A stretch of 64,000 nt of DNA from a virus: IMG/VR virus record IMGVR_UViG_3300043621_000137, positions 1 to 64,000 of that record; one strand, given 5' to 3'. Positions 16,541 to 25,495 of this stretch are shown in pieces (the first letter of the stretch is position 1; each line of letters begins with the position of its first letter). Under the pieces are notes generated by a model that was not told the origin of the DNA, ran no database searches, and saw only the letters and a program-made list of their open reading frames with translations. Both the position numbers and the translations under genes were made by a program.

Positions 16541-16754
16541 CTGCGTGTGGCCCGATCTTCCAACTCGGTTCCAACTTCCCAACTGGAAACCGCTAACTCC
16601 TTGCTTATCAATGACTTACAAAATCGCCCAGATCATTACGAAAAGGCCGGCCGATCTCCACTTTTGCTGGCCTTTTTGACGAAACCGCCCCCGCTGTCCC
16701 TTCCTGCCTGTTCCTGGCACGACATGCTAACAGCCCATTGGAAGGGAGGCCGCG
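16541..16754. promoter_or_regulatory. Probable attP arm region
   Basis: This 214-bp stretch is the most AT-rich part near the integrase and holds no gene. CCAACT occurs at 16560-16565, 16571-16576 and 16579-16584, and CTAACT follows near 16593: short direct repeats of the kind used as integrase arm-type sites. A terminator-like hairpin lies at 16641-16676. Confidence 0.45.
16641..16676. terminator. Bidirectional terminator-like hairpin
   Basis: AAAAGGCC (16641-16648) pairs with GGCCTTTT (16669-16676) around a 20-nt loop, giving A-tract and T-tract on opposite sides. It could end integrase transcription on one strand and tRNA-side readthrough on the other. Confidence 0.5.
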
Positions 16755-17036
16755 ATGGCCCGCATCGAGGATCTCCGGAAGCTCGACGACACGCCGATCG
16801 AGCGCCAGGTGGAAGCCCTGGACGAGCCCTGCCGCACGCTGCTCGACACCATCGAGGAGCTGCTCGCAAGCGACGATCACCTCTGGGCCTACGGCACCCT
16901 CACCGGGATCCGCGAGACGGTGCGGACGACGCGCCGCGTCAGCCTCGGCCAAGAGCGCGCGATCAAGCACATCGCGCAGCGCGGGTATGCCGATGCGCGG
17001 CGGCGGTACGAGGGCTATCGGGGGCGGGGGCGCTGA
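16755..17036 (+). CDS. Hypothetical 93-residue helical protein
   Basis: Starts at ATG 16755 after GGAAGGGAGGCCGCG, a strong ribosome site. The sequence is helical throughout (IERQVEALDEPCRTLLDTIEELLASDD), with a basic Arg/Gly tail. It opens a new rightward group after the attP region. No function is recognised. Confidence 0.6.
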   Translation: MARIEDLRKLDDTPIERQVEALDEPCRTLLDTIEELLASDDHLWAYGTLTGIRETVRTTRRVSLGQERAIKHIAQRGYADARRRYEGYRGRGR

Positions 17037-17182
17037 TGGCGCGCGCCACGAAGAAGACGCCGGAGGCGCCTGAAGCGCCGCCCCCGCTCGTCTGCGCCTT
17101 CGGCACCCCGTGGCTCGATCACTTCAAGCCGCCCGTCGGCACCGGCCAGGGCTGCCCGCACTGCGACGGCTACCGGTGCTGA
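17036..17182 (+). CDS. 48-residue protein with CPHC motif
   Basis: ATG 17036 overlaps the preceding TGA. The product has a basic N-terminus, a VCAFGTPWLDHFKPP core and a C-terminal CPHCDGYRC. Three or four cysteines suggest a zinc or metal site. The gene is small but tightly coupled on both sides. Confidence 0.5.
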   Translation: MARATKKTPEAPEAPPPLVCAFGTPWLDHFKPPVGTGQGCPHCDGYRC

Positions 17183-17183
17183 G

Positions 17184-17657
17184 ATGACGCTCACCATCAT
17201 CTCGGGCGGACAGACTGGGGCGGACCGCACGGCGCTGGAGGTGGCGCGCGAGCTCGGGCTGCCGACCGGCGGGTGGGCGCCGCACGGCTGGCGCACCGAC
17301 GCGGGCGCCGACCCGTCGCTGGCGGACTTCGGGCTGCGGGAGTGTGCCCTGCACAACTACCGCGTACGCACCCGCTGGAATGTCCGCGACGCCACGGCGA
17401 CCGTGTGGTTCGGGCACATCGACACGCCCGGCGCGAGCTGCACGATCCGCGCCTGCCTCGACTACGACCGGATCCATCGCTGCAACCCCGACGCGGACGG
17501 CCTCGTCGCGTGGCTCGTCGAGCACCAGCCCCTGATCCTCAACGTCGCGGGCAACCGGCGGCGCACGAACCCCGGCATCGTCCAGCAGGTGCGCGACGTG
17601 CTGGCGCCCGCGCTCGCCCGCTACGTCGCGCTGGAGCAGGCGGGACGCTCATGCTGA
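17184..17657 (+). CDS. cpYpsA-type SLOG (putative molybdenum carrier) protein
   Basis: A 157-residue protein starting IISGGQTGADRTALEVAREL, then GGWAPHGWRTDAGADP, the signature of the cpYpsA/putative molybdenum-carrier branch of the SLOG Rossmann-like superfamily. ILNVAGNRRRTNPGI near residue 115 is the second conserved glycine region. Known SLOG proteins bind nucleotides or nucleotide-derived ligands. Here the gene overlaps the start of the UDG-polymerase by 7 nt, which hints at a nucleotide-related role, an inference from position. Confidence 0.7.
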   Translation: MTLTIISGGQTGADRTALEVARELGLPTGGWAPHGWRTDAGADPSLADFGLRECALHNYRVRTRWNVRDATATVWFGHIDTPGASCTIRACLDYDRIHRCNPDADGLVAWLVEHQPLILNVAGNRRRTNPGIVQQVRDVLAPALARYVALEQAGRSC

Positions 17658-20600
17658 CCAAGCCTGCCGGCTGCCAGGGCTGCGCGCTACAAGAGAAGGG
17701 CCAGGGCTTCGCGCCGGCCGACGGCCCGGCCGGCAGCTGGCTCCTGCTCGTCGGCGAGGCGCTCGGCTACACCGAGGCGCTGACCGGCCGGCCGTTCATG
17801 GGCGACGCGGGCGGGATGCTGCAGCGCCTGCTCAACCTGCTCGGCTGGTCGCGGGACGCGATCCGCATCCACAACACGATCTCATGCTTCCCTGGTGACA
17901 CGATCGTCGAGGCGGCTGGAGTCCAGCGTGGGTATCGGCGTTGGTATGAAGGGGACGTCGTAACGATCGAAACGCGGGCGGGCGTTCTCACCGGTACCCC
18001 GAATCACCCAGTACTGACCCAGCAGGGCTGGATCGCGCTGGGCGAGCTGCACGGCGGTGACTATCTGGTCCGCGGTGCCCTCAGCCAGGGGATGCAGCGG
18101 AGTGATCCACACGTAGAGTACCGACCAGCCCCGTTCGCGCAGGTGTACGAGGCGTTGGCGATGGCGGGGGTCACTCGACGGGTGGTTGGCCGCACAGTGG
18201 ACTTCCACGGCGACGGGGGCAACGGCGATGTCGATGTTGTAGCCCTCCACCGGGTACTGCACGCGAGCACCGTCGATCCGAGCGACGAGTTGGCGGAAGA
18301 GCTCGTTCTCGACGCGCCCGACCGCCCACCCGTAGCACTCCTGGCTGATCGCGCGTCGTTCGACACGGTGGCGGATCTGCTCCGCGCTCTGGACGAGCCC
18401 ACGCGCCGCCTCGTGGGCGGACGTTACGAGGGCCGCACGGCCCTCCACATCGAGGCGCTGCCAGCGGCTAGCCTGCGCGTCGGAGCGATTGCGGAGCTTG
18501 ACCCCGGCGGCGAGCAACGTCGCGCGCAAACGCGCTTGACCTACGCCCCGCTCGACCGCGAGCGCCGCCACGCTCTCCCCCGCCCGATAGCGGCGGATCA
18601 GGTCATCAAGATCAAACGCACGCGCTACTCGGGCCACGTCTACAACCTCCAGACGACGTCGGCACAGTACCTCGCCAACGGCTTCATCGTCCATAACTGC
18701 CATCCGCCTGGCGACTGGTTCGACGAGCGCGCGCCGTGGTACTACCGCGCGATGGCCCATTGCCCGTACCTCGAAGCGACGCTGGCCGAGCGGCACCCGG
18801 TCGTCGTGCCGATGGGCCTGACCGCGATCCGGCGCGTGCTGCACCTCGAACACAAGAAGAAGGTGCGCGTGCAGGACTTTCATGGGAGTGTGCTCCGCGA
18901 CCCGACCGATCGCTTCTGGGTGGTACCGACGTATCACCCGAGCTTCCTGCAGCGCGGGGCGACCAACCTGATCGGCACGGTGCTCTGGGACCTGAAGCGG
19001 GCGGAGCAGGCGCGGGAGAGCGGCCGGCCGGCGAGTACGCACACGCTGGTGATCGACCCGCCGGTCGCCTGGTTCAAGCAGTGGGTCGATCAGGTCATCG
19101 CCGCCCGCACGCAGGACCCGGGCGCCTACCCGCTCAGCAGCGACATCGAAACGCCCGACAAGGCCGGCGGCCAGGACGAGGGCGAGATCACCGCCGACGA
19201 TGTGAGCTACCAGCTCCTGCGGCATAACCTCGCGTGCCACCCGGACGAGGGCGTGACCGTGCCGCACGCGGGCCCGTACCTCGACGAGCTGAAGCGGCTG
19301 TACGCCTCGCCCGGATGCATATGGATGTGGAACCGGGAGTACGACTTCGCGCGCCAGGTCCACGCGGGCCTGCTGCGGGAGGAGGACTCGGGCAAGGTCG
19401 TCGACCTGATGTGGCTCGCGCACTTTCTGCAGAGCGACCTGCCGCGGGGCCTGGGGTTCTGGGCGCCGTTTTATAGCGACTACGGCCCGTGGAAGCACAC
19501 CGCGTCGGACGAGCCGGCGAAGTACGGCGCGGTCGACGGCTTGCAGACGCACCGAGTCGGGTTCGGCGTGGTCGGGGATCTCGTGCAGCAGGGGCAGTAC
19601 TCGATGGCGCTGCGCCACACGCACACGCTGCTGAGCGAGGTGCTGCGGCCGGCGCAGCTGGTGGGGCTGAAGGTCGACCGCGCGCGGCTGATCGTGTTCA
19701 AGGACGAGCTGGCCGAGAAGGCGCGGGCGCGGCTCCAGGCGCTCCAGGCGGCCGTGCCCGAGGCGCTGCAGCCGCTCACGCCGAAGCCGGGGATGACGCG
19801 CCGGCCGGCCGCCTCGGTGCTGCATGTGAAGGCGACCGCGTTCACCCAGAAGGGCACCCTGCGGAAGGGCAAGCCCACCGCTGAGATCAAACAGGAGCTC
19901 TATGCCAAAGCCGTCGTCGTCGAACAGCTCGTCCTCCGGGAAGTCCTCGTCTGCCGTGATTGCGGCGCTGTTGAAGTGCAGCGACGACATCGATGCGCTG
20001 ATCCTGCCACTGCAGCTCGTGCGGCTCACGCTCCTCGACTTGATGTCGACGTTGCGACGGTCCGCCGCTGGTTCTGGCAGGAGCCCTTCAACCCCGACTC
20101 CGTCCCCCAGGTCCTCGCCTACCTCAAGTACCGCAAGCACACGCCCGGGCGGGCGAAGAAGAGCCAGAGCGACGCCTCCACCAACCGCGAAACCCTCGAA
20201 CGGCTGAGCCGCACGACCCAGGATCCGTTCTACCAGGCGCTGCTCGACTACCGCGCCATCGGCAAGGTGAAGGGGACGTATGTGGAAGGGACCGAGAGAA
20301 GGCTGGACAGCGAGGATCGCCTGCACCCAGTGCCGACGTTCAAGCCGAGCACGATGAGGCTCTCGTACGTGAATCCAAATATTACGAACGTCGTCGCCGA
20401 CAAAGGCGGTTCGGCAGGGCTGGCGGCCGGCTTCCGGAGCTGCATTGTCGCGTCGCCCGGGTGCCGGCTCCTGGAGGTGGATTTTTCGGCCATCGAAGCC
20501 GTCGAGACCGGCTGGTGCGCGCGCGATGCGGAGTACTACCGGCTAGCGAAGCTCGGCGTCCACGCCGCGCTCGTCACCCATGCGATCGGTCAGCCCTACG

Positions 20601-21457
20601 ATCCGCAGGCGAGCGACGCGGAGCTGCGCGCGCTCTTCACGGCGGTGAAGAAGCGCCACCCGCAGGTCTATGAGCCGGCCAAGCGCTACATCCACGGGCG
20701 GAGCTACGGCCTGACGGTCGCCGGGATGGTGCTGCAGTTCCCGCATCTGTTTCCGACCCAGGCGAGCGCCGAGAAGTTCGCGCGGGTGTTCGAGAAGATG
20801 GCGCCGGGCGTGGCGGCCTGGCAGACCGCGACGCAGGTGAAGGCGAGCCGCCAGCACTACCTGGGTGGGGAAGATCACCCGTTCAAGTACAAGCACTGGT
20901 TCTGGAGCGTGTACAGCTACAAGCGGCTGACGGCCACGCAGTACTACCGGCTGGTGAAGAAGTACGCCGGGACGGGGGAGCCCCCGTGCGTGCAGATCAA
21001 CGGGCAGTGGTTCCGGGTGAGCCTGGGGGAGGATGGGAAGCGGGTGCTCGCGTTCTACCCGCAGAGCATTGCGTCGGGCATTCTGAAGGAAGCGATGCTG
21101 CGGCTCTTCGCCGACCGAGAGTCGCCGAGCTACCTCGGCGAGGTCTACTTCGGCAAGACGCCGCTCCGCGCCCCGATCCACGACTCGCTGCTCCTGGAGA
21201 TTCCCGACCGGGCCTGGGACCGGACGGTCGAGATCGTGTGTCGGGAGATGCAGCGCCCGGTCATCGAGCAGCCGCTGCCGGCCAGCTGGGGGCGGGGCGA
21301 CGGGGCGTGCGTGGCGATCGGCGTCGCGGCGAAGGCGGGGCACGACTGGGCGGCGATGGAAGAAATCGCCGTGCCGGGGTACGAGAGCGAGTGGGCGGCC
21401 GAAGCGGTGGAGCACGACGATGCAGAAGATTGGGCGCATCTCCAACGCGTTATCTAA
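17651..21457 (+). CDS. Family-4 UDG / family A DNA polymerase fusion, intein-containing
   Basis: The 1268-residue precursor contains an intein at residues 79-349. Removing it joins HNTIS to CHPPGDW, restoring a family-4 uracil-DNA glycosylase domain: Cys8 and Cys11, VGEALGYTE (residues 34-42), Cys350 and Cys371 (the four Fe-S ligands), and YHPSF. A DEDD exonuclease follows (Asp498 in SSDIETP; YGAVDG at 625), then a family A polymerase: motif A EVDFSAIE (Asp944), O-helix-like KRYIHGRSYG, and motif C HDS (1177-1179) in place of the usual HDE. A CxxC...HxC insert (CRDCG at 768) may bind zinc. It starts at ATG 17651, overlapping the SLOG gene. Confidence 0.85.
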   Translation: MLTKPAGCQGCALQEKGQGFAPADGPAGSWLLLVGEALGYTEALTGRPFMGDAGGMLQRLLNLLGWSRDAIRIHNTISCFPGDTIVEAAGVQRGYRRWYEGDVVTIETRAGVLTGTPNHPVLTQQGWIALGELHGGDYLVRGALSQGMQRSDPHVEYRPAPFAQVYEALAMAGVTRRVVGRTVDFHGDGGNGDVDVVALHRVLHASTVDPSDELAEELVLDAPDRPPVALLADRASFDTVADLLRALDEPTRRLVGGRYEGRTALHIEALPAASLRVGAIAELDPGGEQRRAQTRLTYAPLDRERRHALPRPIAADQVIKIKRTRYSGHVYNLQTTSAQYLANGFIVHNCHPPGDWFDERAPWYYRAMAHCPYLEATLAERHPVVVPMGLTAIRRVLHLEHKKKVRVQDFHGSVLRDPTDRFWVVPTYHPSFLQRGATNLIGTVLWDLKRAEQARESGRPASTHTLVIDPPVAWFKQWVDQVIAARTQDPGAYPLSSDIETPDKAGGQDEGEITADDVSYQLLRHNLACHPDEGVTVPHAGPYLDELKRLYASPGCIWMWNREYDFARQVHAGLLREEDSGKVVDLMWLAHFLQSDLPRGLGFWAPFYSDYGPWKHTASDEPAKYGAVDGLQTHRVGFGVVGDLVQQGQYSMALRHTHTLLSEVLRPAQLVGLKVDRARLIVFKDELAEKARARLQALQAAVPEALQPLTPKPGMTRRPAASVLHVKATAFTQKGTLRKGKPTAEIKQELYAKAVVVEQLVLREVLVCRDCGAVEVQRRHRCADPATAARAAHAPRLDVDVATVRRWFWQEPFNPDSVPQVLAYLKYRKHTPGRAKKSQSDASTNRETLERLSRTTQDPFYQALLDYRAIGKVKGTYVEGTERRLDSEDRLHPVPTFKPSTMRLSYVNPNITNVVADKGGSAGLAAGFRSCIVASPGCRLLEVDFSAIEAVETGWCARDAEYYRLAKLGVHAALVTHAIGQPYDPQASDAELRALFTAVKKRHPQVYEPAKRYIHGRSYGLTVAGMVLQFPHLFPTQASAEKFARVFEKMAPGVAAWQTATQVKASRQHYLGGEDHPFKYKHWFWSVYSYKRLTATQYYRLVKKYAGTGEPPCVQINGQWFRVSLGEDGKRVLAFYPQSIASGILKEAMLRLFADRESPSYLGEVYFGKTPLRAPIHDSLLLEIPDRAWDRTVEIVCREMQRPVIEQPLPASWGRGDGACVAIGVAAKAGHDWAAMEEIAVPGYESEWAAEAVEHDDAEDWAHLQRVI
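17882..18694 (-). CDS. Putative antisense homing endonuclease (HTH + Vsr/DUF559-like)
   Basis: On the strand opposite the intein, ATG 18694 opens a 270-residue frame ending with TGA at 17884-17882, the complement of extein Ser78 (TCA). Residues 30-72 form a helix-turn-helix: DLIRRYRAGESVAALAVERG, then VGQARLRATLLAAGV. Residues 120-232 look like a PD-(D/E)XK/Vsr-type core: VENELF (Glu131), GYNIDIAV (Asp155), VAVEVHCA (Glu164, His166), HRQRLVHLRERGWSVLYVWI, and a C-terminal helix. This HTH-plus-nuclease design is known for phage homing endonucleases of the Vsr-like group. Codons of the two strands are in exact antiparallel register. A further ATG at 18703 lies just outside the intein. No expression evidence exists. 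Confidence 0.7.
   Translation of the reverse strand: MDDEAVGEVLCRRRLEVVDVARVARAFDLDDLIRRYRAGESVAALAVERGVGQARLRATLLAAGVKLRNRSDAQASRWQRLDVEGRAALVTSAHEAARGLVQSAEQIRHRVERRAISQECYGWAVGRVENELFRQLVARIDGARVQYPVEGYNIDIAVAPVAVEVHCAANHPSSDPRHRQRLVHLRERGWSVLYVWITPLHPLAEGTADQIVTAVQLAQRDPALLGQYWVIRGTGENARPRFDRYDVPFIPTPIPTLDSSRLDDRVTREA
17885..18697 (+). mobile_element. Intein in the UDG domain (271 residues)
   Basis: The first residue is Cys (TGC 17885-17887) in CFPGDTIVE (block A). Block B reads GTPNHPVLTQQGW. The C-terminal splice region VYNLQTTSAQ, then LANGFIVHN, is block F/G, followed by Cys as the +1 extein residue (18698). About 60 N-terminal and 50 C-terminal residues make up the splicing domain; the middle (about 160 residues) has no LAGLIDADG or HNH motif on this strand. 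The insertion is at a conserved Fe-S cysteine, so an unspliced product should lack glycosylase. The middle is accounted for by an antisense gene. Confidence 0.9.
19314..19327. repeat. Dispersed palindrome copy (GATGCATATGGATG)
   Basis: Twelve of 14 positions match the consensus. It lies inside the exonuclease part of the polymerase gene, encoding GCIWMW. Confidence 0.4.
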
Positions 21458-21656
21458 GTGGCGCGTCGGGGTGCGCGACTGGGGGCCGCGCACCTGGACC
21501 CGCCTCCGGCAGGCGTGCTGCCCCCACGCCCATCTCTACCGGGTGACGGAAGGCGGCATGCGGTACTTCCGCTGCTGCGCGTGCGGCTATCAGGTCCCCC
21601 AGCTCCGGCGCAGCCCGGAGGAGCGCGCCCAGCTGCGTGCGCGGTGGCCGCGATGA
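21420..21656 (+). CDS. Small zinc-ribbon protein
   Basis: A 78-residue protein that begins 38 nt before the polymerase stop in another frame. CCPHAHLYRV and FRCCACGYQVPQL supply a zinc ribbon with paired cysteines. The flanks are basic. It overlaps the next start by 4 nt. The role is unknown; it may be a replication accessory factor by position. Confidence 0.55.
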   Translation: MQKIGRISNALSKWRVGVRDWGPRTWTRLRQACCPHAHLYRVTEGGMRYFRCCACGYQVPQLRRSPEERAQLRARWPR

Positions 21657-21904
21657 CGCCCGCCTGCTGCGCGTGCCTGCACTGGAAGCATCGCTACGAC
21701 GACCAGTACGGCCGCGGCCGTGGGACCTGCTGGCACGAGGTGCCGTGTGTGATGACGCACGAGGACGACGACTGCGAGGCCTTTGTCGATCGGCTGGCGA
21801 ACCGGGCGGAGTTCGAGGCCAGCCACGCGCGTGCTGCGCGTGATGCGCGTGATGCATATGCAACTATGCTAGGATGCTTGGATGGCAAGCAACGCACACA
21901 TTGA
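21653..21904 (+). CDS. Cysteine-rich small protein
   Basis: An 83-residue protein from ATG 21653 (ATGA overlap with the previous stop). CCACLHWKHR, CWHEVPC and DDDCEAF provide five to six cysteines and two histidines near the N-terminus, a probable metal site, followed by an Ala/Arg helix. Near the C-terminus a dispersed palindrome copy encodes DAYAT. The coding sequence overlaps the next gene by 23 nt. Confidence 0.55.
   Translation: MTPACCACLHWKHRYDDQYGRGRGTCWHEVPCVMTHEDDDCEAFVDRLANRAEFEASHARAARDARDAYATMLGCLDGKQRTH
21851..21864. repeat. Dispersed palindrome copy (GATGCATATGCAAC)
   Basis: Twelve of 14 positions match; it is followed immediately by TATGCT (21865-21870) and an ATG at 21882, so it sits where a promoter or regulator site would act on the next gene. 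Confidence 0.55.
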
Positions 21905-22124
21905 TACGGTCCTGAAGGAACTGGTGGAAACAGCCAACTATCTGCGCGAGACCGGCCGCCTGATGCGGGCGGCGGTCGATCACCTGATCGCAGTCGAGGA
22001 GCACTTCGAGAAGAGCAACCGCTACCTGATCCTGGTGGCTGAGCACGCCGACAAGGCGATCAACGCGGCACTGCGGGCGCAGGAGCGGGCCGAGGACGCT
22101 AGCGGGGACGCCGGTGGCCAGTAA
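21882..22124 (+). CDS. Hypothetical 80-residue helical protein
   Basis: The whole protein is predicted helical by pattern, with hydrophobic heptads (TVLKELVETANYLRETGRLM, then VDHLIAVEEHFEKSNRYLIL), consistent with a coiled coil. It may have its own promoter element (TATGCT at 21865). It overlaps the next gene (GTG 22114) by 11 nt. No function is recognised. Confidence 0.55.
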   Translation: MASNAHIDTVLKELVETANYLRETGRLMRAAVDHLIAVEEHFEKSNRYLILVAEHADKAINAALRAQERAEDASGDAGGQ

Positions 22125-22302
22125 GCCGAAGGGCCGCCCCTACTCGATGGCCTACACCGCGGCCGGGACGCCGCGGCGGTATCTGCTCAGCGGCATCCCG
22201 GCGTCGCTGTGGATCTCGTTCAGCGCGCGCGCCAAGCGCGAGCACATCGCCAAGCGGCAGGTGATCCTGCAGCTGGTGGAGGACTGGACCCGCCGGGCCT
22301 AG
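22114..22302 (+). CDS. Small RHH-like DNA-binding candidate
   Basis: A 62-residue basic protein from GTG 22114. The C-terminal half, YLLSGIPASLWISFSARAKR then KRQVILQLVEDWTRR, resembles a strand-helix-helix unit. It is the last gene of the rightward operon. Its TAG (22300-22302) overlaps the stop of the leftward operon's last gene, so the two operons converge without a gap. Confidence 0.55.
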   Translation: MASKPKGRPYSMAYTAAGTPRRYLLSGIPASLWISFSARAKREHIAKRQVILQLVEDWTRRA

Positions 22303-22481
22303 CGCGACATGACGTTCGGTAGGTTGCCCGCGAAGCGCGAGAGCAGGTAGAGGACGACCACGATCAGGGCGAGCACCTGGAGGGCGGTCGCCCAGTAGGG
22401 CGGCATCGGGATCTTCGTGGTGATGAGGTAGATGAGGAAGCCGATGAGCGCGATGACGAGGACGAGGATGACCAGATCCAT
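22299..22481 (-). CDS. Holin-like membrane protein
   Basis: A 60-residue protein with two hydrophobic helices: residues 2-22 (LVILVLVIALIGFLIYLI) and 32-50 (TALQVLALIVVVLYLL), joined by TTKIPMPPYW. The IPMPPYW turn is typical of a family of small two-helix phage membrane proteins often labelled holins. It is the last gene of the late operon, next to the lytic transglycosylase protein, which fits a lysis or membrane-ejection role. No separate endolysin gene is seen in this window. Confidence 0.6.
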   Translation of the reverse strand: MDLVILVLVIALIGFLIYLITTKIPMPPYWATALQVLALIVVVLYLLSRFAGNLPNVMSR

Positions 22482-22488
22482 ATGCGTC
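22475..22488. repeat. Dispersed palindrome copy (GATCCATATGCGTC)
   Basis: Twelve of 14 positions match. It spans the ATG of the holin-like gene (minus strand start within CATATG), so binding here could affect its translation or transcription. Confidence 0.4.
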
Positions 22489-22498
22489 TCCTTCTGAG

Positions 22499-25495
22499 CT
22501 AACTGCCGGGGCGGGGAAGAAAACTCGCGCCGAGCCAGTGCTGCGGGCGGCCCGGTGCGGTGGGTGAATCGTCCTCGCCCCCGCCCGCCAGCTGCGAGGC
22601 CGCCGCCGCGCCGCCGAGGAGCGCCGGCGGCAGGAACGACATCAGCGAGAAGCCCTGCTGGCGGATGCGCGCCTTCATCTGGGGGGAGAGGCGGGCGATC
22701 CAGGCAGGCTCGTGGACAGTGGCGTCGACTTCACCCATCGTCTGGTACGGTTCGACGACCGCCCAGGGATTGCCCGCGTAACCGATATTGAGGGTACCGG
22801 CTGCGCGCTCCGCCTCCCGCTGACTCATGTTCTGGTAGGACGCCAGGCCCCGCTGCCCAGATCGGTCGATGACCCGATAGCGCGTCACCGGCCCTGGGGC
22901 CTTGCCGGGGACCGGGACGGTGCCCTGCTCGACCTGGCCGCCGAAGGGCTTGAGCAGCTTGTTCAGGCGCGCCGGGAGGAGCTGGTCGTAGAAGGACGTC
23001 ATGCCCTCGCCGCCGACCTGGAGGTCGAGGCCGGAGAGCGTCGGGAGGTACGGGTCGCCGTCGCGCGCGGCGGATCGCCGCGTCGCCTCGTGGCTCTCGT
23101 TGAGTAGCTCGTCGATGCGCTCCTGGGCCGCCTCCTCCGACTTGAACCATTCCAGGGCGCCGTCGTAGGTGTGGAGCGGCTCCCCATTGGGATCGTAGAT
23201 GTGAAAGTACTCGGGGGTCGTCTCGTGACCGACGCTCCACTGATCGCGCTCCCACTTCCTCCCTGCTTCGTGGCGCTGGATCTGCTCGGTGAGTTTCGCC
23301 GCTGGCCCCTCGCCGATGTGCTCAGCGATCTCCTCCGGCTCGACACCCTCATCGATCACCCGCGCGCCGTCATGATCGTAGGCCAGCAGCCGTCGCTCGA
23401 CGGGGTCGTACTCGATCTTGCTGACCTGCTTGGCCAGGTCGTACCGCTCATTCTGCGTGCCGCCGCTCGTGAAGCCGAGCCAGGACAGGTCGCGGCGGTG
23501 GGCGACGTCGAGGAGCTGCTGCTTGAGGGCCAGATCGGGCCAGGTCTCCTTGAAGGGGGCGTCGGGGATGCCCTTGGGCGATTCGAGCGCGCGGAGCTGC
23601 GTGTTGAGGTGGTTGTACTGGTCGGAGGCACGGTCAAACTCCGCATTGGCGACCTGCGACGCCCGCTGCGCGGCGCGGGCCTCGGGCGTCGCAGCGGCCC
23701 TGTCGCGTGCGGTTCGCCACGCCTCGATGGGGTCTGATTCCCACCCACCTCCAGAGGGCGCCCGGTACGCCTGGGTCGCCTCGTCGAAACTCTTCAGATG
23801 CTGCCACTCGGGCGGCAGGTACTGGGGCAGGTGCTCGCGCTGCCGATTGATGTGCGCCTGGGTCGCGGCGTCGCGGGCGACGGCCTTCTCATGGAGCGCG
23901 GCGTCGGCTGCCGCCAGCTGAGGGCGCAGCTCCGCCGCTCGGGCCTGCATCTCGGGCGTGACCTGCGCGTAGCCCGACCGCTTGCCCGCCTGGTGCCAGT
24001 CGGACTGGATCTCTTCGAGGAAGCGCCCGCGCTCGCCAGGATCGTGCGGGTAGTTGGTAAACCCACGCGACTGCCCGTACAGCGCCGCCTCGTCGTGCGA
24101 GATGAGGCCCTGACTCACCGCGCGCTGCGGTGCCCCCGAGGCCAGGTGCTCGGGGCGCGTCACCCCGGCGACGTCTTGAATGATCTGCTCGATTTCGGGG
24201 AGCGAGCGCATCCCCTCGATTGGGAGCGCCCGCTCGGTGGTGCGCGCGTGGGCAAGGATGTTGGGCTGATCGAAGTGGCCGGAGCGGTACTGCGCGTTCG
24301 GCAGCGCATTGATCTGCTGCTGGAGGCGATTGAACTTCTCGACGAGTTCGGGGGGATGTGGCGCAAACCGATCCTCGCCGCGCGCCTGATGGAACGCGGC
24401 GATCTCGGCATCGACCGCATCCCGCTGGGCGACGAGCTTCTGCATGCCCGCCTCATCCGCGCCCGCTAGCTGCGTGAGCGACTCGCGGTAGTTCTCGCCG
24501 CCGGGGAGGGTGTAGCTCTGGTACTTCGGGGCGGCCGTACCCGACTCGGCAATCGCCCGCGCTTCATCCTCGCGCGCCACCGTCCGCGTCGACCCGTCGG
24601 AATACTGCACCACCCACTGATTGCCCCGTTGTTCCACCGGCAGCGCGCCCCCGAGCACCGTCCGCGTGATCTCGGGCGGCGGGTGCGCCTCCAGATGCTG
24701 CGCCAGCTCCTCCTTCGAGATGAGCTGGTTCCCCTTGCGGGTGATCAGGTCGGGCAGGTTGCGGTAGGCGACCTCCTCCTGGCTCGCGCCCGACTTCAGG
24801 AGCGAGGCGAGCTTGTTCGGATGGATGCCCTTCTTGCCGACTTGCTCAGCGACCCGATCGACGCGCGAGAAGAAGCCCGGCGGCAGCACGGCGGCCAGGT
24901 GCGCGGCGGCCCCACCGACAAACGGCGCGGCGGCCTTGAGCGCCGGGCCGATGGGCAGGTCGAGATTCGTCGCGATGCCGAGCGGCGTCGAGTTTTGGAC
25001 GCCCTGGTCGATGAGCTGGTGGGGGATCCAGTCGTTGGGCGCGTTGAGGATGTCACCGACCACCGCGGGGATGCCCGCCCGGGCCATCGCCTCACGCGCC
25101 GGGGCGTTGCGCTCATCGAGGGCCTGGTGACCCAGCTGAGCGAGCGCCTCGGTCGAGGGGGCCGTCTCCCAAAGCGGGGCGTAGTCCTCCTTGAACTGGT
25201 GCGCGATCCCCTGCACGGGTGCTGAGCCAAGGATGCGCTTGACGGGGTCGATGACCGACGAGTTGATGAACGCCTGGGTCTGCTGCCCGCGCTTCGCCCG
25301 CCAGGCTTCCATCCCGGCGTCGAACGTCTTCGCGCGCGCCTGCTGCTCGGGCGTGGCGGCGGGCAGCTTCGCGTTGACCCAGTCGCGGGCGCGCGTGATC
25401 TTGTCGGTGACCGCGTCGACCTCGTCGTCGACGCCGACAAGCTCCATGAGCCGGCGCCAGAAGGAGGGAGGGGTGGGATCGTCGGCGGCAGCCAT
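22499..25495 (-). CDS. Large internal virion / polyvalent-type protein
   Basis: A 998-residue protein. The middle has RFLEEIQSDWHQ followed by AGKRSGYAQ, and later FKETWPDLALKQQLLDVA with DLSWLGFTSGG, sequence blocks characteristic of large phage polyvalent or ejected proteins. The N-terminus is helical (domain of tail or ejection type); the C-terminus contains a hydrophobic stretch (LMSFLPPALLGGAAAASQLA). Such proteins are carried in the virion and injected with the DNA. No catalytic function is assigned. Confidence 0.6.
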   Translation of the reverse strand: MAAADDPTPPSFWRRLMELVGVDDEVDAVTDKITRARDWVNAKLPAATPEQQARAKTFDAGMEAWRAKRGQQTQAFINSSVIDPVKRILGSAPVQGIAHQFKEDYAPLWETAPSTEALAQLGHQALDERNAPAREAMARAGIPAVVGDILNAPNDWIPHQLIDQGVQNSTPLGIATNLDLPIGPALKAAAPFVGGAAAHLAAVLPPGFFSRVDRVAEQVGKKGIHPNKLASLLKSGASQEEVAYRNLPDLITRKGNQLISKEELAQHLEAHPPPEITRTVLGGALPVEQRGNQWVVQYSDGSTRTVAREDEARAIAESGTAAPKYQSYTLPGGENYRESLTQLAGADEAGMQKLVAQRDAVDAEIAAFHQARGEDRFAPHPPELVEKFNRLQQQINALPNAQYRSGHFDQPNILAHARTTERALPIEGMRSLPEIEQIIQDVAGVTRPEHLASGAPQRAVSQGLISHDEAALYGQSRGFTNYPHDPGERGRFLEEIQSDWHQAGKRSGYAQVTPEMQARAAELRPQLAAADAALHEKAVARDAATQAHINRQREHLPQYLPPEWQHLKSFDEATQAYRAPSGGGWESDPIEAWRTARDRAAATPEARAAQRASQVANAEFDRASDQYNHLNTQLRALESPKGIPDAPFKETWPDLALKQQLLDVAHRRDLSWLGFTSGGTQNERYDLAKQVSKIEYDPVERRLLAYDHDGARVIDEGVEPEEIAEHIGEGPAAKLTEQIQRHEAGRKWERDQWSVGHETTPEYFHIYDPNGEPLHTYDGALEWFKSEEAAQERIDELLNESHEATRRSAARDGDPYLPTLSGLDLQVGGEGMTSFYDQLLPARLNKLLKPFGGQVEQGTVPVPGKAPGPVTRYRVIDRSGQRGLASYQNMSQREAERAAGTLNIGYAGNPWAVVEPYQTMGEVDATVHEPAWIARLSPQMKARIRQQGFSLMSFLPPALLGGAAAASQLAGGGEDDSPTAPGRPQHWLGASFLPRPGS

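Follow-up and report, generated by a model that had tools for sequence, protein, structure and literature searches.

Can one stretch of phage DNA be read on one strand as a self-splicing intein and on the other, codon for codon, as the endonuclease that moves it? The question arises from a preliminary description of 64,000 nucleotides (the window) of a 69,814-base virus record, which proposed, from the letters alone, a homing-endonuclease-like gene nested antisense within an intein. Since an integrase gene is present (Phage_integrase, 1.9e-12), the virus is suggested to be a temperate phage. The reading we favor, at a probability of about 0.83, is a homing intein whose endonuclease is encoded by a separate gene lying antisense to it, codon for codon. 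The original observation holds, and the evidence supports a real antisense nuclease: the predicted protein is conserved, under purifying selection, confidently folded in a structure model, and related by profile to PDB entry 3r3p.

The intein and its host gene

The sense strand carries the following features.

17651-21457, plus strand: intein-containing gene for a UDG and DNA polymerase A protein (Pfam UDG 5.5e-15, DNA_pol_A 1.4e-23)
17885-18697, plus strand: intein of 271 codons, Cys1 to His270-Asn271, then Cys+1 (PF14890, 7.8e-10; model; intein-less alleles)
17996-18019, plus strand: splice block B, TPNHPVLT, codons 38-45 (sequence and alignment A7)
18635-18655, plus strand: splice block F, HVYNLQT, codons 251-257 (its antisense holds the nuclease start codon and Shine-Dalgarno)
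18683-18697, plus strand: splice block G, FIVHN (not covered by the antisense ORF; ordinary sense-type substitution pattern)

The host gene reads as a single unbroken sense frame across the intein, which follows directly on the extein Ser codon TCA (17882-17884), and the insertion point, 17884/18698, lies in the UDG motif. The intein borders first given were confirmed, with a match to Pfam Intein_splicing (PF14890) of 39.2 bits against a cut-off of 35.8, and the sequence features of a class 1 intein are present in the window and in alignment A7 (Cys1, TPNHPVLT, HVYNLQT, FIVHN, and Cys+1). In the AlphaFold model, the splicing domain is folded (codons 1-68 and 232-271) and residues 123-231 are disordered; the top Foldseek matches of the model are solved inteins (prob 1.00, E 2e-3), in support of a HINT fold. 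The sense frame holds splicing blocks and a linker, without an endonuclease, and its product would be an intein that removes itself by splicing.

The antisense gene and its start

Opposite the intein, the minus strand carries the 270-residue, codon-aligned frame from ATG 18694 to TGA 17882 as it was first described, within a longer frame open from 20326 to 17882 (814 aa). Under local codon usage at 67% GC, a stop-free antisense frame has P = 0.26; openness was thus rejected as evidence for an antisense gene in the window, and only relatives are informative. The gene that they help to define, and the parts of its product, are as follows.

17882-18637, minus strand: nuclease gene, GTG 18637 to TGA 17882, 251 residues (conservation, codon-position test, model)
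18646-18650, minus strand: Shine-Dalgarno GGAGG, 8 nt upstream of GTG 18637 (synonymous codon choice in relatives)
18503-18610, minus strand: helix-turn-helix (HTH) region, residues ~10-45 (PF19575; helices in the model)
18107-18316, minus strand: Vsr/DUF559-like nuclease core, residues ~108-177 (PF18741; PDB 3r3p and 3hrl profile matches; model)
18308-18310, minus strand: conserved Glu, E110 counted from the GTG (129 in the longer frame), at least 90% conserved
18230-18232, minus strand: invariant Asp, D136 (155 in the longer frame), from the alignment
18203-18205, minus strand: conserved Glu, E145 (164 in the longer frame), antisense of the Phe in the sense motif DFHGDG

The ATG at 18694, at first taken as the gene start, was rejected: the 19 residues upstream of the GTG are not conserved, and stops occur there in several relatives. 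For this reason, and because GGAGG lies 8 nt upstream, the functional start is very probably the internal GTG 18637. Stops often interrupt this frame in relatives upstream of the block F His codon, where the conserved protein begins with ATG or GTG (mostly ATG), the reverse complements of CAT and CAC; opposite the Leu-Gln/Glu codons of block F stands GGAGG or GAGG. Of 36 Leu codons, 26 are CTC, against an expectation of 9.3 from extein usage (z = 6.8), and of 29 His codons, 24 are CAT, against 10.3 (z = 5.7); the z values are indicative only because the loci are related. On this codon evidence, the synonymous codons of block F are chosen for the ATG and Shine-Dalgarno of the nuclease gene. Since the block F His is absent in some members (e.g., L035, L041, L043, and L044), the nuclease must start elsewhere in these.

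The nuclease stop at 17882-17884 is the antisense of the extein Ser codon; relatives have their stop within the intein, at a distance of 3-72 bp from its border. Because the stops vary in this way and the model predicts disorder for the last ~30 nuclease residues, opposite intein codons 1-31, the near-match of both frame ends with the intein borders is in part a matter of chance. The preliminary description had placed both ends 3 bp from the borders, and these coordinates are right; the argument drawn from the coincidence has to be corrected. A scan of 17600-19400 for promoters and terminators recognized none.

The antisense product as a nuclease

Profile searches and a structure model bear on the proposed N-terminal HTH and C-terminal Vsr/DUF559-like core. 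Pfam matches of the minus frame, all under the curated cut-offs, are to MTES_1575 REase (2.5e-4), HTH_58 (4e-3), and DUF559 (0.02); across members, HTH families match in many and MTES_1575 in nine, and in PHROGs no nuclease family was found for the minus frame. When the nuclease profile was compared with the PDB, it matched over the nuclease core to 3r3p ("mobile intron protein," E = 3.4e-5), which we take to be I-Bth0305I, and to 3hrl (5.1e-5). AlphaFold, given an alignment of the window with IMG/VR rows, predicts the HTH and nuclease core confidently (mean pLDDT 82.1), with disorder after about residue 220. The modeled core runs helix-strand-strand-strand-helix-strand and carries the conserved E, D, and E; its Foldseek match to 1vsr is weak (prob 0.77, E = 0.27).

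Of the core residues first named, Asp155 (D136) is invariant and Glu164 (E145) conserved, but the conserved upstream glutamate is Glu129 (E110) rather than Glu131, and His166 of the ExH motif is not invariant. In the alignment of 20 antisense products (A1, too diverse for pattern search), N134, D136, V144, E145, and R162 are invariant and E110 nearly so, in numbering from the GTG. Read in antisense, the conserved sense motif DFHGDG...DVDV mirrors the active site of the nuclease, and the antisense of block B falls in the last strand region of the nuclease.

Which strand is under selection

The register sets sense codon position 1 opposite antisense position 3 (wobble) and vice versa, which allows selection on the two strands to be told apart. 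In pooled related pairs, where pairs within groups are not independent, substitutions at positions 1/2/3 run 0.24/0.18/0.50 in the exteins and 0.08/0.05/0.34 in the final 20 codons of the intein, which the antisense ORF does not cover; in mid-intein they run 0.38/0.13/0.23, inverted relative to the exteins. The position-1 excess in mid-intein is significant in 8 of 11 separate pairs (p 0.03 to 4e-5). Selection on both frames could be compared, as had been proposed: mid-intein pN/pS in the 11 pairs is 0.15-0.63 for the antisense frame and 0.79-1.24 for the sense frame, and in the N-terminal splice region, the sense value is 0.04-0.53. Around block B all three codon positions are slow (0.12/0.05/0.21 for codons 31-45). 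For the window itself, comparison with L002, divergent and the closest useful one, gives a modest signal (p = 0.03, antisense pN/pS 0.63). Across related inteins from many phage genera, the antisense frame is conserved, in mid-intein better than the sense frame. In relatives of low GC content (42-50%), 7-21 antisense stops would be expected and there are none (P down to 1.7e-12). The outcome named beforehand as refuting, a broken or unconserved antisense frame among related inteins, was thus not what the comparison showed.

Judged by these patterns, both frames are under purifying selection, the splice blocks in sense and the middle in antisense. Splice-block codons are double-coded, as first supposed, and mirroring of sense-intein conservation is refuted by the codon-position test. 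Such a locus offers a clear natural case of two folded proteins overlapping in antisense, with opposing selection measurable by codon position.

Relatives and their distribution

A tblastn search with the minus frame reached 118 phage records, the best match (138 bits, 6e-35) spanning residues 33-270; most sense-frame matches align at the N-terminal third only. Among loci from annotated records and IMG/VR contigs, the nuclease profile lies opposite an intein in 66 of 66, including those retrieved by nuclease-specific patterns, and also in most of a further set. Carriers include phages of Gordonia, Mycobacterium, Salmonella, Klebsiella, Pseudomonas, Vibrio, and others, and the module occurs in genes for MuF, UDG, terminase, and dCMP deaminase. 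Among genome contigs, a Gordonia-type profile gave nothing that was confirmed, and a Pseudomonas-type profile gave one prophage (L067), in which the nuclease profile again lies opposite an intein in the same antisense arrangement. A second intein-like region near a MuF intein (L006:1314-1910) has no antisense nuclease match and serves as an internal control.

In Acinetobacter Obolenskvirus phages (L090:455-1348 and L094:2830-3723), a relative of the nuclease is free-standing, with many stops on the opposite strand. It converges on an intein-less MuF gene, overlapping the last bases of that gene, and possibly represents a state before the intein arrived or after its loss, in which the nuclease guards the same target.

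Annotation of the antisense strand is sparse. In Salmonella phage PK2 (L088:1402-2211), the antisense ORF is annotated as hypothetical protein XRA40007.1, and the vB_StyS-sam record has a shorter annotated ORF on that strand; none of the records examined names a nuclease there.

Mobility and the proposed mechanism

Empty alleles join exactly at the insertion site. The joined flanks from Gordonia phage Affeca give a continuous, insert-free match in many Gordonia phages (91-95% identity among the matches listed), and those of the Salmonella phage insertion are likewise continuous without the insert in Salmonella phages (84-87%). For the window's own gene, IMG/VR contigs carry intein-less relatives at 64-83% protein identity, with uninterrupted junctions of the HNTISCHPP type. 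Between the window and IMG/VR contig 3300011444_000014, the intein shows 0 differences in 813 positions, and differences start 15 bp before it and 6 bp after it; an identical intein with diverged flanks is suggestive of recent transfer, in genomes that are mosaic and hold other identical blocks. Over positions 16745-23008 of the window, the two records share 94.7% identity, with identical and diverged blocks alternating as a recombination mosaic. By its pattern of presence and absence, the intein and nuclease pair behaves as a mobile element.

On the sense strand, the host protein would be made with an intein that splices itself out; on the antisense strand, the start codon and Shine-Dalgarno in block F would give rise to a free nuclease with an HTH and a Vsr-like core. 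This enzyme probably cleaves alleles that lack the intein, at the insertion point within the UDG motif (17884/18698 in the window), and repair of the cut allele would copy in the whole element. We infer splicing, antisense transcription and translation, cleavage, and homing, with cleavage and homing drawn from the presence and absence alleles.

Other readings of the antisense frame

An unlikely alternative is that the antisense protein is made but serves something other than homing, for example, as a regulator of the host gene or as a nuclease against competing phages. Its HTH would suit DNA binding, cleavage is itself putative, and phage homing-type nucleases can harm competitors too; against such a role stand the strict association with the intein at polymorphic sites, the occurrence in several unrelated host genes, the exact empty alleles, and the profile relation to 3r3p, a mobile intron protein. 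Less probable again is that the window holds a decaying remnant of a once active antisense endonuclease. Homing elements do decay once fixed, and both the GTG start, in place of ATG, and the weak selection signal in the comparison with L002 would fit decay, but E110, D136, E145, R162, and the Shine-Dalgarno are intact, the model is confident, and the identical intein recurs in a second virus with diverged flanks. That the frame is a by-product, held open by GC-rich codon usage and conserved as the mirror image of the intein in codon-aligned antisense translation, would accord with a frame open to 20326 in a GC-rich window and with P = 0.26 for openness, but is very improbable given the inverted mid-intein substitution pattern, the absence of antisense stops at 42-50% GC, the confident nuclease fold with its nuclease profile matches, and the existence of a free-standing homologous gene.

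Relation to known systems

As a homing intein with an antisense endonuclease gene, the element can be set beside several known arrangements. Canonical bifunctional inteins, with in-frame LAGLIDADG or HNH enzymes, likewise combine a splicing domain with an endonuclease and are sporadically present at conserved motifs of essential genes with exact empty alleles; their nuclease is in the sense frame, whereas here it is a separate, Vsr-like antisense gene in codon register. Mini-inteins share a sense product of splicing blocks and linker only but have no endonuclease in the element, whereas here the linker DNA is the antisense coding strand of a selected nuclease and not a relic. With I-Bth0305I and other Vsr-like homing endonucleases, the antisense product has in common a sequence relation of the nuclease core (the 3r3p profile match of 3.4e-5) and an association with phage-gene inteins. 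Work by Dassa in 2009 and Taylor in 2011 reportedly described "fractured genes," in which the nuclease gene lies between two split-intein halves. There, gene and intein are split in two, whereas here an unbroken intein is overlapped by the nuclease gene in antisense; a split-intein reading of the window does not fit the one continuous sense frame, 17651-21457.

Two further systems place an endonuclease out of the host frame. The ShiLan domain (PMC11855218), an HNH hidden out of frame in a phage methylase, is alike in that a phage gene holds an in-frame insertion with an endonuclease in a second reading frame; it lies on the same strand and has neither a splicing domain nor a recognizable ribosome binding site, and a ShiLan-type reading does not fit the antisense strand, the Vsr-like nuclease, and the splicing domain seen here. 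I-DsqI (PMC9548176) is encoded antisense to its host gene within a self-splicing element, and its cleavage has been shown, but the element is a group I RNA intron in rDNA, the enzyme is of the His-Cys kind, and there is no protein-coding overlap with a splicing protein.

The searchable literature, to which a 2025 preprint on actinophage inteins does not belong, yielded no description of antisense endonucleases in inteins. That preprint, on their "non-canonical architecture" (Gosselin 2025, bioRxiv 10.1101/2025.01.02.630785), is cited in PMC11855218 for overlapping reading frames and may already describe the antisense arrangement, for example, in Gordonia MuF inteins; for this reason, the odds that the arrangement is undescribed are about even. 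We give the same even chance to the broader proposal of an undescribed, widespread class of phage inteins, with an antisense codon-register endonuclease over nearly the whole intein, the ribosome binding site and start in block F, one stretch selected for both splicing and cutting, and movement among at least four kinds of host gene.

If the homing reading is true, inteins have a further way to carry an endonuclease: instead of fusing it in frame or losing it, they encode it antisense as a free enzyme, and the splicing fold does not have to make room for it. Phage "mini-inteins" thought to be endonuclease-free may hold one on the opposite strand that gene callers overlook. Because the target sites are predictable (MuF, UDG, and terminase motifs), homing could be tested directly in cultured phages of Gordonia and Salmonella.

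Several variants were seen among the relatives. Rhodococcus phage REQ3 (L091:2342-3007) has a short antisense nuclease without an HTH, and residue 1 of its intein is apparently Ala, not Cys. Two longer inteins (L036:3932-5098 and L038:2092-3255) have antisense nucleases with about three HTH-like repeats, which suggests that HTH copy number sets target recognition. The profile of phrog_15127 ("head protein") appears to cover the intein of this kind together with the MuF head protein and therefore matches any gene with this intein, such as dCMP deaminase and terminases. One gene carries two such inteins (L039:2981-3778 and L039:3920-4714), with an antisense nuclease in each.
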